In this document: positions 21,501-60,629 of the stretch, piece after piece
Position numbering within the stretch: position 1 is the first letter of the stretch
Layout: every line of letters begins with the position of its first letter
NCBI GenBank assembly: GCA_911728435.2
Contig: OU452198.1
Span: forward strand, 45,909,017 to 45,973,016
Direction of reading: 5' to 3'
Origin: Apoderus coryli
Lineage: Eukaryota > Arthropoda > Insecta > Coleoptera > Attelabidae
Length of the DNA stretch: 64,000 nt
The notes under the pieces: generated by a model
Databases searched by the model: none
What the model saw: the letters and a program-made list of their open reading frames with translations, nothing else
What the model was told of the DNA's origin: nothing
Translations under genes and position numbers: made by a program

Positions 21501-22391
21501 CGAGGCATGTTTTTTAAGTAAGTACCGTTTTGGAATTAAAAAAAGACGTGCAAAGATATCGCAATAATTTTATTTTTACATGAAAGCCTGTACCTTAATC
21601 TACTTTTCTACATAATTTCCGTGAATATTGAGGCACTTGTCATAACGTGGCACCAGTTTTTCAATACCCTCCTCATAAAATTCTGCCGCCTGACTTGTTA
21701 ACCACTGTATCACAAATGTTTTGAACGAAACATCGGTGGCCTACGTCACACCATAATCGAAACAACAATCCATGGAATGGCGACATTCATCATCAGCCAA
21801 AAGAGTGAAGTTTAAGCAAACAATTTCTGCCCGGAAAATCATGTGCACAGTTTTTTAGGAGTATTGCTAGTGGAGTTTCTGCCTCGTAATGAGACAATCA
21901 ATGCAGCGTCTTATTGTGAGATATTGAACAATCTGCGTCGTGCAATCCAGAACAAAAGACGTGGCAAGTTGAGTAAGGGTATCGTTTTGCTGCATGACAA
22001 TGCCCGTCCACATGTGGCTAATCGGACCAAAGATCTCATCAAATCTTTTAAATGGGAAACTCTACATCATCCTCCATACAGCCCTGATCTGGCGCCCAGC
22101 GACTACCATTTGTTCCTGCACTTGAAGACACACCTGGGTGGTCAGCGTCTTCAAGACGATAACGAAGTCAAAACATTTGTGATACAGTGGTTAACAAGTC
22201 AGGCGGCAGAATTTTATGAGGAGGGTATTGAAAAACTGGTGCCACGTTATGACAAGTGCCTCAATATTCACGGAAATTATGTAGAAAAGTAGATTAAGGT
22301 ACAGGCTTTCATGTAAAAATAAAATTATTGCGATATCTTTGCACGTCTTTTTTTAATTCCAAAACGGTACTTACTTAAAAAACATGCCTCG
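21501..22391 (+). mobile_element. Mariner with 3' end duplicated as a 224-bp inverted arm
   Basis: The element is bordered by TA (21499-21500 and 22392-22393). Its left 224 bp (21501-21724) is a nearly perfect reverse complement of its right 224 bp (22168-22391). The right arm is the normal mariner 3' end and includes the transposase C-terminus. The left arm is therefore an inverted copy of that coding end, and has replaced the original 5' end, promoter and DNA-binding domain. The outer end is CGAGGCATGTTTTTTAAGTA. The 443-bp loop holds the middle of the transposase. Such a structure can fold into a long hairpin and can no longer encode a working enzyme. Confidence 0.92.
21725..22292 (+). pseudogene. 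Mariner transposase, catalytic C-terminal two thirds
   Basis: Reading from the arm junction, NETSVAYVTP is the degraded first catalytic site (normally DETW), followed by a stop and SKQQSMEWRHSSS, then ISARKIMCTVF with a stop and frame change near 21855. From 21843 the frame is open to 22292. It contains GKLSKGIVLLHDNARPHVA with the second aspartate and HHPPYSPDLAPSDYHLF with the third. Exactly 34 residues separate the two aspartates, the DD34D spacing of mariner. It ends LNIHGNYVEK, the usual mariner C-terminus. The N-terminal HTH domain and the first catalytic D are gone, so the product is inactive. Confidence 0.9.
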
Positions 22392-26783: not shown

Positions 26784-28870
26784 CAGGGTGGTCCAACGAA
26801 AAGTTTGCACCTAGCTTTTCTCTTTTTTTTGTAGTCGAATGCGAAAATGCTCGGACACGTCGATTTTGCTTTTGAGGGGGACACATTTTAAACATATTTT
26901 TCGATCTGCGCCTTTAACCCCCTAGCGGGGGTGAGTAACAACCCTAAAATTTTAAATGGAAAGAGGGGTCTAATGACATATCATTTGAAAGGACACAAAA
27001 TTGTCTTTCTAATGATACCCTATTTGTCGAATTTTACTAAAACAGTTAATACGAAAACGACTTTAAAGACATTAAGCCGATAATTTTGGTATTAATGAGA
27101 AATACAAATAAGTTTTAATTATTGCGAGTGAAAACACCTGCAATCGTTAGTACATTCCAATGTTTGTTAGTTTTAACATTGCTTTGTAAAAAAAGTAAAC
27201 AAGCTGTTAAATTGATTTATTAAAACGTTACATTAACAAATGTTGAAAATGTGACCCATTTGATTCCATACAATAATACAGATTTTGTTCAAATCTATTT
27301 CTAACATTTTGTAGCATATCAGGTGTTATGTTTCTGCACTCTTCTGTAATGCGTTGGCGAAGATCTTCTATGGACTCGGGCTTCGTGGCAAACCATTTAT
27401 TTTTTAAGTGCCCCCAAAGAAAAAAGTCTAAAGGCGATAAATTCGGTGACCTGGCAGGCCATTCAATTGGGCCCCTCCTTCCAATCTACCGTCCAGGGAA
27501 CCGGTCATCTAAGAACTGTCTTACAGGAGCCACATAGTGCGGAGGTGCTCCATCTTGCTGGAAATAAAGCCGATCAGCAGTATGATTTTGGTCATCTTCT
27601 ATTATTTGTGTTATTAAAGGATCAATTGTGTCTTCAAGCATGTTTAGGTACACTTCACCAGTTAAATTTCCAGGAATAAAAAGTGGTCCTATAATATGAT
27701 TTCCTAATATGCCACACCAGACGTTTATTTTTTGAGGATACTGGGTATGAACCTCACGGAATAAATGTGGGTTACTGTCATCCCAGTAACGGCAATTGTG
27801 CCTATTTACAGCTCCATTCAAATAAAATGTGCATTCGTCGGAAAAACAAATGTTAAATAATAATTGCGGATCTTCAATTAAACGCTGGCTCATTGCTTCA
27901 CAAAATTGCAGCCTTCTATCAGGATCATCCTCATTTAGTTCCTGTACTAATTTGATTTTGTACGGATGAAATTTGTACGCTTTTAAAATTCGTATTATGG
28001 ACGAACGGGAGACACCTGAGGCTTCAGCTAGTTGACGGGTACTTTGACTATGATCCATTTCAACATGCCCTAAAACAGCGACTTCCACAGCTTCATTTCT
28101 GATCGGTTTCTGCGGCTGGTGTTTTACATTACAGACAGATCCGGTATCTACAAACTTTTTAACTAACTTGCCAACGTACACATCATTCACATTTTTATCG
28201 GGATGTCTCTCATTAAATAAGCGAGCCGTAAGTCTAGCACTACTATTATTTTGAAAATAAAGTTTAACAATTTCAACTCGTTCTAGAATGGAATAAATCA
28301 TTTTGTACGGTAAAAGTAAAATAACTTGAGAAGCAACCAAACTGAATCAATGAAAAGACTAAAATAAACGGTGTAAATTCTTTTCCTACACGTATCTGCA
28401 GTTTTTATTTCAACAAAAAACGCAAACGATTAGTGAGGAATTTAGTTCTGATAAATAAGATAGTGTTTTTGAAATCCCGTTTTTCTTCAAAGTAAATAAT
28501 TTAGAAATGATTGTAGTTGTTTTCAGTCGTAATAATTAAAACTTATTTGTATTTCTCATTAATACCAAAATTATCGGCTTAATGTCTTTAAAGTCGTTTT
28601 CGTATTAACTGTTTTAGTAAAATTCGACAAATAGGGTATCATTAGAAAGACAATTTTGTGTCCTCTCAAATGATATGTCATTAGACCCCTCTTTCCATTT
28701 AAAATTTTAGGGTTGTTACTCACCCCCGCTAGGGGGTTAAAGGCGCAGATCGAAAAATATGTTTAAAATGTGTCCCCCTCAAAAGCAAAATCGACGTGTC
28801 CGAGCATTTTCGCATTCGACTACAAAAAAAAGAGAAAAGCTAGGTGCAAACTTTTCGTTGGACCACCCTG
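26784..28870 (-). mobile_element. DD41D Tc1/mariner-superfamily transposon with ~350-bp TIRs
   Basis: This is a complete 2087-bp DNA transposon. TA flanks both ends (26782-26783, 28871-28872). The termini read CAGGGTGGTCCAACGAAAAG. The left arm (26784 to about 27136) and right arm (about 28518 to 28870) are near-identical inverted repeats of about 353 bp, unusually long for this superfamily. Between them lies one transposase gene on the minus strand, intact apart from one nonsense codon. The 41-residue spacing between the second and third catalytic aspartates matches the DD41D (Visitor) group as I recall it. The high arm identity suggests fairly recent activity. Confidence 0.93.
27228..28301 (-). 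pseudogene. DD41D transposase, one in-frame stop
   Basis: The enzyme would cut and paste the surrounding element. I start at the internal methionine at 28301 (MIYSILERVEIVKLYF), which begins the first helix-turn-helix; an upstream in-frame ATG at 28340 would add 13 residues. The N-terminal half has the two HTH segments typical of Tc1/mariner (SARLTARLFNERHP and STRQLAEASGVSRSSIIRIL). The DDE core shows FSDECTFYLNG (first D), LYFQQDGAPPHY (second D) and RSPNLSPLDFFLWGHLK (third D), with 41 residues between the last two. The single defect is TAG at 27488-27486, where the context R-F-P-G-R-stop-I-G-R suggests a former tryptophan. The frame is otherwise open to TAA at 27230-27228. A sequencing error would be an alternative explanation. 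Confidence 0.9.
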
Positions 28871-47104: not shown

Positions 47105-47685
47105 TAGGGAGTCAAGGCAAAACCAAAGACGTATGCGTATCTCCATACGTAAACGTGAGATTTTGGTTATGTTTACACTAGATAAGCAGTCATTCAAAAT
47201 AAAGTTAAGGTGCCATCCAATACGTATCGTATATGCGGAAGGTAGAGATAACACTTTACTTGAGAAAAAGACTTTTAGATTTTTCTACTTCCACTTACTA
47301 TGTTGTTAATATTATTGTTTTTTTAATGATTAACCAAATACCTATTTATTTTATTATGTATACCTATAAACAATAAGAGAAAAATGTTTATAATTGTTAC
47401 AAAATGAACTACTACTACTAATAATAAGAAAGTATTTATTGCAAAATAGCTTAGCTTAATTATTAATATAGATTCACAGTTTTTGTTGTTCTATTCTAGA
47501 TATTCGTACAAGTTCATGTAGTTCCGACAACAACCGGTTCAATACGTTTAAGTATACGATACGTGTAGAGGTACATATGTTCACGGCCTTCGTATCGTTA
47601 AACGTATCATAAATTTAAAGAGCGCATGCGTATATGGCAAAAGATACGTTTACGTATACGTCAGTGACTTTGCCTTAACTCCCTA
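47105..47685. mobile_element. TTAA-flanked MITE, copy 2
   Basis: TTAA flanks both ends (47101-47104 and 47686-47689). The left end TAGGGAGTCAAGGCAAA and the reverse complement of the right end TAGGGAGTTAAGGCAAAG are TIRs with subterminal ACGTATACGT-type words. The 581-bp body has no significant coding frame. Its first ~135 bp recur at 60497-60629. Confidence 0.87.
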
Positions 47686-48112
47686 TTAATAGGGATGTGG
47701 ACATGAGGATGGAACTGTTACATTGTGTATATCGTCGGCTTGCTGCGAAAACTCACTAAGTCAAAACTGACACATTGTGAATAAACCAAATTTAAATAAA
47801 TGCACAAGTTTCCCAGAGCTTTGAACGACAAATATGTGTGGACTAATTCTCCAAATTAAAAATATATTATATTAGTAAGTTTCCTTATTGATATTATATT
47901 TAAACAGGTGATGCGGTCACCCTGTTTTAAAAAATAAATTTAAAAGTAGAAAAATGTGACTTAGTGAATTTATAATTCAGTCGCAATTCTAATGTGTGAC
48001 TGACTTAATGAGTTCTGTTATTACAAATTAATTCAATATTTTGATTTTGTAGAACACAATTTTTATTTTAAATATAAAACTTTACAAAACTAAGACAACT
48101 TTTAAATTTTAA

Positions 48113-50684
48113 TTAAATATTTTCCGTTTTCGAGTCAGAATATCCAGGTTCAAGGATAAAATCTTTCACCGTAATACTAGTGGGCAACGATTCATACCAA
48201 CCATGGTACTCATCTGGTATCGCACCTTTTTGGCATAATTTTAGGAGATCTCCTTTCTTTTTAGCAGATATAGGCAGCATACTCTTGTATAACTTGTTTA
48301 ATTTTATGGTACTAAAATTAACTTTTTGGGTAGCTCGTGATTTACCTTCTATATTTATTTTTTTATATTCACTGAAATAATCATACCGATATTCTATAGT
48401 AACAGGTTCAGTTTTTTGAAATCGAAAACACTTTACTTTTAACCAGTTTACTTTCTCATTATTGATGTCGCATATTTTGTTTCTAAATACATGTCTAGAT
48501 AATTCCTTTAAGTTTAGAAAATCGCTAAACTTTATCTCCTTTGTAATGAATGGATCGCCTAATTTATTACGGTTCCGCTTCGATCTTGCTCGTTTAAAAA
48601 TACTTAAACAGTCATGAACAACATAAACTGCCTGGTATTTTTTTTCTTTTTCGATGGCGCTGTGCATTGAATCTACTTCCATGTAGCTGTGACCGCTTTC
48701 TAAAAACTTATGCTCTATAATATCTACAGAAGTAGTTTGAACAATATAAAGAAGTAATGCAGCAATATTTTGGTTTCGGTTTTGTCCCCCACATGTATCT
48801 GAATACAATGTTACGTGTTTTACATCAGACTTTAAGTGCTTAAACCAACTGTACAAACACGTTCCGATTTCTGAGCTACCTCGTTTTCCGTGAAGTTCCG
48901 TCCATGCAAAACAGTAAGCTTTGTGTGGTTGTGGAGATTCATACACCGTTAAATTGTACATATTAATTTTTCGGCTATAATACATGGGCGAAACATCGGA
49001 GCACGGAATCTGCAAAACGGATTGTAAATCAAATGTTACCATAAGAAATGATGAATTATTTTCCGCTTTAGCTTTATCAATTTCTTTTGACTTGGCTGCT
49101 TCATTTTTTCGTATAATATGATCATGGTATTCATCTTCAAAACTGTCTCGATCCTGATTATTAGAGTTTTGATATCGATTACAGGTTGAGCACTGATCTT
49201 TTTTCGGTTTAAAAAAAGAAAAATTATAAGAAGTGCAAAATACTTTTCGATAAACATGTGACGAAACTGCTTTTAAGTTATTCTCTAAGTAATACTCTCG
49301 GTACAGATCATACATCTTCGAAATAGACAGTCTAGGATCTAAGTAGAGCCTCCTAGTAGATTTTCTTCTATAGTGACTTTCCATTGCTGGAAAGCTTTCA
49401 ATGTGTGCCTTAATAATTGCTAAATCAGCCTGAGTTGTTTTGTTATTAGGCGACTTTTTACCTCGTCCATCCTCTCCTTCAAAGACACCCAAATAATTTC
49501 TTTTTTTAAACGCAGTAATTATTGGACCATTGTTAATGTTAAGGGTTTTCATGAAAAACGCCTGACAAACTCGAAGCTTTTGATCACCTTTATAGAAGTG
49601 ATATTGTTTGGCATTTGATGGGATTTTGCTATTTTCCCCTTTCCTTGGCCTTCGACTTTGCGGTGGCTGTACGTCGATATTTTTTAAAATAAAATCCATT
49701 TTGCGTTCATAAGTTTTAAGTCCCCAGTACTCTTTACAAATATCTATTCTCTGATCTTCATTAAACTTTGTTGTACATTTAAATCTACAAGAAATACCAC
49801 ATGAACTATTTTGAGGAGTTTTTGCGGAGTGGATTTTCCCTCTTTTTGTCGAATACTCTTGACATTTACTCATTTTAAGCTTATTAACATTTCGAGACCA
49901 TTTAGTTGGATCACTTTTTCTCCATCTCGTTAAAACTTTCTGGTTTCCGTTATGATCACAGAGCTTTTTGTTTGTCTTTCTTACAATCCGGCGTCGCATG
50001 GAACACAAATCAAGCGAAGAATCATCAGTATCATCTTCTGATGAAGAATATGGCAAATTCAATAAGTTTTTCCCATTATTTTCTGTGTTTTCCATGACAG
50101 CTGCTTCAACAAGAAGTCCACTCTCTTTATCTACAACGTATTCTGTAACTTGACTGTAATTCTCAATACCTGCAAAAAAGTACCTCATCTTTATTTTAAA
50201 TTATTATCTTATCGAAAACCTTACCTAATGAAATTGGTGCTTCATGGTACAAAAAATCCGAATTAAGCTCAAACATGTTTGGCACTGGAATAAAATTGTA
50301 TTTTGAAATACAGATTTAATTTTTACGTAAATTTTACAGACCTAATATTATATCTAAATAACTCAGAATACGAAGCAAGTTGTCTTATGCAACTTTAAAT
50401 ATAGATCTCACCATTACAGTCCGAGGTTGATAAGTCGTCGGAGACAAAAAAGTTTATATTTCGATTTTCTATATTCACTCCACTCGCTGTCTTTATATCT
50501 TGCAATGTACCATTGGCTTGTTCTGGAGTGTTGTCTTAAAAATAAAATCAATCAAATCAAATAATTAATGTGTTATTAAAATAACTATAGAACATAATGC
50601 ATCTGTCTGTAAATGTTACTTACTTTCGGAATTGTTAGCAGTTAGAGCTAACTTTAGCAGCTTGTTTGTACGGTCTGAATACAT
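48113..50684 (-). CDS. Putative DDD-type transposase, 766 aa, four exons
   Basis: Exons are inferred at 50684-50624, 50534-50412, 50284-50225 and 50169-48113; each intron is GT-AG (89, 127 and 55 nt) and every junction keeps frame, totalling 767 codons with the stop. The long unspliced frame from 50188 would start inside intron 3, so its first seven residues are spurious. The N-terminus is acidic and serine-rich. Cysteine pairs (C-x3-C-x3-C near residues 205-213; CSTC near 408-411) may bind zinc. An RNase H-like core is suggested by VTFDLQ (D about 462), LYSDTCGGQNRN (D about 539) and GHSYMEVDSMHSAIE (D about 581, E about 588). The C-terminus contains LLKLCQKGAIPDEYH. A poly(A) signal lies at 48067-48062. 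Similar uncharacterised proteins with SD-CGGQN motifs are, as I recall, widespread in aphids. The surrounding TIRs make a transposase the best reading. Confidence 0.85.
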
Positions 50685-50814
50685 TTTTATGCAAATGATA
50701 AAATAATAATCATAGAATATTTGATATACAATACACGTCGTTTATCAAATGATCGTTACAATTTGCATTAAAAACCTGTAACTTTTAGGTTATATAACGG
50801 AATTTTGGCGTTTA

Positions 50815-50998
50815 AAACTCACTAAGTCACATAAGAAAATAACAAAATTCATTATGTCACTTAGTGAGTTTACGGATTAAATGAGAACGCTTAAAATGAC
50901 TTAATGAGAATTTTATTTACCACTTTTCTGTTACTTAATGAGTTTTAGGGCGTTTATTATTTTGGCTAAAGATGGGTTATTATTAAACTTAGTGAATT
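50815..50998. repeat. Subterminal iterated motif of the transposon (right side)
   Basis: Relatives of TGACTTAGTGAGTT occur at 50815-50829 (inverted), 50857-50870, 50897-50910, 50931-50945 and 50986-50998, besides the copy within the TIR. The left end has copies at 47957-47970 and 48001-48014 plus the one in its TIR. They are probable transposase binding sites; that role is inferred. Confidence 0.8.
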
Positions 50999-51061
50999 GT
51001 ATATAAACCTAAAAACACGGAAATATTGACTTAGTGAGTTTTCGCAGCAAGCCGACGATAT

Positions 51062-60496: not shown

Positions 60497-60629
60497 TAGA
60501 GAGTTAAGGCAATACCAAGGACGTATACGTATCCATGCTTAACCGTGGGATTTTGGGTATGTTTACGCTACATAAACACTCATTCAAAATAGAGTTAAGG
60601 TATCATCCAATACGTATCGTACATGCGAT
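60497..60629. mobile_element. TTAA-flanked MITE, copy 3 (left end only)
   Basis: TTAA (60493-60496) precedes TAGAGAGTTAAGGCAATACC and a body matching 47105-47240, including TCATCCAATACGTATCGTAC against GCCATCCAATACGTATCGTA. Similarity stops at about 60629, exactly where a CACTTCACTT array begins. The right end is missing. Confidence 0.8.

Follow-up and report, generated by a model that had tools for sequence, protein, structure and literature searches.

A complete-looking transposon with a predicted spliced transposase gene of the DUF7869 family in the beetle Apoderus coryli

A stretch of 64,000 nucleotides from the beetle Apoderus coryli (assembly GCA_911728435.2, contig OU452198.1, positions 45,909,017 to 45,973,016), analysed as a whole and called the window below, contains at window positions 47733-51057 a segment of 3,325 bp in which two identical terminal inverted repeats (TIRs) enclose a single minus-strand gene. 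This gene was read as four exons encoding a protein of the Pfam family DUF7869 with a predicted RNase H-like core. The segment is very likely a transposon with a DDE/D transposase, a degree of confidence that covers no superfamily assignment, and is best explained as an autonomous class II DNA transposon. It is complete-looking and ordinary in kind. The features of the locus are as follows.

47729..47732, no strand: left flank ATAT, putative target-site duplication, of ambiguous length as ATAT is palindromic
47733..47764, plus strand: left TIR, 32 bp
47750..48014, no strand: left-end AACTCACTAAGTCA-like repeats, three copies (47750-47763, within the TIR; 47957-47970; 48001-48014)
48062..48067, minus strand: AATAAA hexamer as a candidate polyadenylation signal, roughly 45 bases beyond the stop codon, a sequence match only
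48113..50169, minus strand: exon 4, encoding the main part of the transposase, including DUF7869 and the RNase H-like core; TTTTTTGCAG acceptor, stop codon at 48115-48113
50225..50284, minus strand: exon 3, AG/GT borders, open frame
50412..50534, minus strand: exon 2, AG/GT borders, open frame
50624..50684, minus strand: exon 1, ATG at 50684, encoding MYSDRTNKLLKLALTANNSE plus the initial base of the codon after it; GT donor
50816..51040, no strand: right-end repeats, four copies at up to two mismatches (51027-51040 within the TIR) and seven at up to three
51026..51057, minus strand: right TIR, 32 bp
51058..51061, no strand: right flank ATAT, putative target-site duplication

The TIRs agree at 32 of 32 bases and begin CGTCGGC... 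at their outer ends, and ATAT stands at both flanks, as an earlier note on this DNA had described. A 31-bp TIR pattern searched with up to three mismatches found, in the window, the two TIR sites only, and none in 100 shuffles. Thus TIRs enclosing one transposase gene, the arrangement of DDE/D cut-and-paste elements, are present, and since the TIRs are identical the element is probably young. Since ATAT is its own reverse complement, the inverted symmetry extends to 36 bp once the flanks are included, and a duplication of 4 bp (ATAT), of 2 bp (AT or TA) or of zero length fits one copy equally. Part of the TIR, AACTCACTAAGTCA, recurs in both orientations. At up to two mismatches it has seven sites in the window, all inside the element (0.73 expected), three near the left end and four near the right; the seven include one in each TIR. 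Repeat arrays of such kind are commonly transposase-binding sites in other transposons, and by analogy the AACTCACTAAGTCA repeats together with the TIR are putative transposase-binding sites.

The three introns (89, 127 and 55 bp) each run from GT to AG, and the spliced frame of 766 residues is open across all junctions with all six splice sites canonical, in agreement with the four-exon reading of the earlier note. The description of the element as apparently intact likewise accords with the open frame and the identical TIRs. The GC (guanine plus cytosine) content is lower in the introns (20-26%) than in exon 4 (34%). Without splicing the locus gives, as had been foreseen, an open reading frame of 691 residues with its ATG at 50188 within intron 3. 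When the N-terminal 140 residues were compared with the Diabrotica homologue P0002 the alignment began at residue 81, and the P0002 gene model seems to begin by read-through of the same intron. The case for exons 2 and 3 is made by splice signals and frame only. Exon 1 was evaluated by its ranking among the 674 ATG-started peptides of the window, given that several homologues start with a motif resembling SRGxxLVxM. With a profile of 12 N-terminal stretches the exon 1 peptide ranked first of 674 (12.2 versus 6.7), a result that is circular to a degree because the stretches were picked and aligned by hand. Among 71 proteins fetched later, six have the N-terminal motif at their start, selected by a score above 10 with the first profile. 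A second profile built from those six only again placed exon 1 first of 674 (16.0 versus 8.9), a check not fully independent because P0185 and P0191 closely resemble P0037 of the first set. On balance exon 1 is taken as supported.

The protein reached the curated cut-off of only one Pfam family, DUF7869 (PF25273; 5.4e-9, 36.3 bits against a cut-off of 26). A first protein search gave 298 proteins at E≤1e-3, a second, run with a 57-sequence profile, found 344 at E≤0.01, and a third with short proteins left out gave 97 at E≤0.01; homologue details are from the best 120 of the 298, the best 120 of the 344 and the matches of the third search. The closest homologue among the matches listed was P0001 with 75% identity, and the Diabrotica homologue was 62% identical. 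Named homologues are mainly from insects (Diabrotica, Ceutorhynchus, Spodoptera, Bacillus rossius), molluscs (Pinctada, Mytilus, Littorina, Saccostrea) and sea urchins (Diadema, Strongylocentrotus). With relatives in many insects and molluscs, the element is a well-preserved example and not new in kind. DUF7869 was not mentioned in the searched literature, and a text search combining the core motif with transposase returned nothing relevant. The intact, spliced frame is also what a domesticated host gene would display if transposon ends had been retained around it by chance. That explanation is very improbable in view of the numerous homologues and of the identical 32-bp TIRs with repeats at both ends, which suggest a young mobile copy.

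Several of the relatives have features of their own. Long relatives (P0111, P0118, P0120, P0121, P0130 and others) carry an OTU-like cysteine protease domain N-terminal of the transposase. The precomputed family PF02338 is present in 12 of 139 proteins and the motif DG[ND]CF in 15, among which HYDG occurs in eight and HYDA in three. OTU-bearing relatives with organism names are molluscs, plus P0164, filed as a bacterial metagenome-assembled genome. P0114, P0164 and P0165 are all filed under such genomes (Candidatus Thiodiazotropha, Sedimenticola); as no relative was confirmed when bacterial and archaeal genome contigs were scanned, these entries are probably host animal DNA. Transposase homologues of Frankliniella fusca (P0205, P0207, P0209) stand under unrelated enzyme names in public records, probably the result of misannotation or of fused gene models.

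FDLQ, YSDTCGGQN and GHSYMEVDSMHSAIE occur in the transposase frame; these are all three core motifs of the earlier note, the last of them written there as GHSxMxVDxxHxxIE. The protein is predicted to have an RNase H-like nuclease core with a fold like that of known transposases and integrases. Spliced frame, predicted fold and structural alignments agree with the earlier proposal of a DNA transposon encoding a spliced transposase of this type, and the structure prediction called for there gave a fold resembling transposases and integrases rather than one unrelated to RNase H. Three conserved acidic residues lie in the predicted strands and helix where such a fold would place them. D462 on the first strand and D539 on the fourth (numbered in the 766-residue protein) are aspartate in 74 of 74 aligned sequences, and D581, which opens the helix following strand five, is aspartate in 72, with one glutamate and one gap. 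The second-to-third spacing is 41 or 42 in 97 of the 101 proteins, among 139, that have all three patterns. D462, D539 and D581 are thus likely the metal-binding triad, with D581 judged to be the third residue from its position in the helix, and the conservation and predicted placement bear out the assignment as DDD-type. In the 692-residue frame these residues and E588 correspond to D388, D465, D507 and E514. Structural searching by Foldseek placed the hAT transposase Hermes 19th and 21st (E 0.06-0.09). No hAT, piggyBac or Transib structure was among the 50 matches listed in each of two VIA-align runs, which excludes nothing, and no sequence match to solved structures was found at E≤1.

Several results weigh against this interpretation or parts of it. 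No Foldseek match reached E≤0.001 for either predicted model, and among the top matches transposases stood beside terminase nucleases, Argonaute and some chains whose function is unrelated. E588, two turns beyond D581, is nearly as conserved (glutamate in 71 of 74, one aspartate, two gaps) and is a possible third residue. The AACTCACTAAGTCA repeats are less distinct at up to three mismatches, with 15 sites in the window where 8.2 were expected; as many were reached in 3 of 100 shuffles, and ten of the 15 fall in the ends of the element. The ends, the duplication and the copy number are all based on one locus: a search with the flanks joined found no second copy, as for an empty site, within the window, and no second copy of the element was found there. 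Relatives with flanking DNA were likewise not confirmed in viral contigs or in bacterial and archaeal genome contigs, and a 24-bp TIR pattern had no match in viral contigs. In an unselected test against the N-terminal 25 residues of 139 homologues, exon 1 ranked only 44th of 674. Four of the eight top-ranked peptides in this test were pieces of the transposase body, which rank high because many predicted homologues begin inside the body, and of the 12 homologues that paired best with exon 1, six carried the motif. Exons 2 and 3 gave no convincing homologue match of their own, as would be found in a non-autonomous or recently dead copy, mobile only in trans, with these exons unreal or subtly damaged. 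Such a copy is rather unlikely given the canonical splice sites and open frame described above and the family N-terminal motif on exon 1, since with that motif a frame connecting exon 1 to exon 4 is expected. The superfamily of the transposon is most likely Sola, group Sola2, a placement held with moderate confidence and made by likeness to published descriptions; the earlier note had suggested Sola or a superfamily not well described.

The Sola superfamily and its group Sola2 were reportedly introduced by Bao et al. in 2009. In one published account, Sola elements have DDD transposases and 4-bp duplications, are mostly 2-9 kb long and carry TIRs of 11-1124 bp (PMC10741241); in another, dictyostelid Sola2 elements have AT-rich 4-bp duplications, ATAT among them (PMC3627910). 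The DDD triad (with E588 as the alternative third residue), the 3.3-kb length and the 32-bp TIRs agree with these ranges, and the ATAT flank fits a 4-bp AT-rich duplication, as it does one of 2 bp or none. The dictyostelid TIRs described there are shorter (12-13 bp, or 21 bp and imperfect; PMC3627910). The agreement of element size, DDD core and AT-rich flank with those descriptions (PMC10741241, PMC3627910) also argues against placing the DUF7869 clade in a separate, not formally described superfamily that would use the same mechanism and share with Sola2 only the 4-bp AT-rich duplication. That placement, which is unlikely but deserves some weight, draws on the Pfam label of DUF7869 as a family of unknown function, on the silence of the searched literature about it, and on the 97 matches of the third search (molluscs, echinoderms, insects), among which was no named dictyostelid protein; this absence means little because the search depends on exact words in common and most matches are without organism name. 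In its fullest form, offered as a doubtful proposal, the DUF7869 proteins of insects, molluscs and echinoderms would be transposases of a eukaryotic DNA-transposon superfamily separate from Sola. Its members would share a DD41/42D core and an N-terminal motif resembling SRGxxLV, which a tiny first exon may encode; behind the TIRs would stand further copies of their inner part, and one branch, in molluscs, would have an OTU protease at the N-terminus.

Other known systems were compared with the element. Tc1/mariner transposases have the signature DD34D, whereas the spacing here is DD41D; the present transposase is about twice as long as mariner chains (some 340 residues) and is 7-11% identical to Mos1 and SETMAR in structural alignments. 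The fold is common to both and a TA duplication is also compatible with the flank, but no mariner family was among the Pfam matches, and Tc1/mariner by sequence homology was rejected with only DUF7869 above the cut-off. Retroviral integrases belong to another element type, with about 12% identity for the best one and no integrase family among the Pfam matches; this Pfam result is also the observation made for Ginger2, which has a Gypsy-integrase-like transposase. Ginger1 has CCGG or CCGT/ACGG duplications, TGTNR ends and in some members a C-terminal OTU domain (PMC2836005). It resembles the present element in a 4-bp duplication (putative here), an integrase-like core and an OTU domain fused in some members or relatives, but the domain is N-terminal in relatives of this transposase, and Ginger1 was rejected because the ends are CGTCGGC... 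and not TGTNR and the flank is ATAT and not CCGG or CCGT (PMC2836005). PiggyBac and Kolobok, characterized by TTAA duplication (PMC9587614), were rejected on the same ATAT flank.

In the mechanism proposed for the transposon, splicing of the minus-strand gene would yield the 766-residue transposase with its RNase H-like DDE/D domain. The protein would attach to the TIR and the AACTCACTAAGTCA repeats, bring the ends together and excise the element. It would then join the element to an AT-rich target cut in a staggered way, so that a short duplication, in all likelihood ATAT, remains. The element may be active at present.

Other features were noticed in the window. Mariner-type transposase-like fragments are located at 27486-28346 on the minus strand (DUF4817 helix-turn-helix) and at 21816-22292 on the plus strand (Transposase_1/DDE_3). 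A reverse transcriptase (RVT_1, 5.7e-22) at 610-1269 on the minus strand belongs to a probable non-LTR (long terminal repeat) retrotransposon. A dispersed repeat of about 109 bp occurs twice with 85% identity, at 47129-47237, some 500 bp to the left of the element, and at 60521-60627.

Reading the gene without splicing would miss the first three exons, including the N-terminal motif on the tiny exon 1. Being compact and apparently complete, with its ends, splicing and end repeats defined, the copy offers a good basis for an excision assay. The results suggest a mechanism for a domain of unknown function, in that the prediction makes DUF7869 the core of a DDE/D transposase, and the hundreds of matches recorded as 'uncharacterized' in insects and molluscs are therefore probably transposon proteins.
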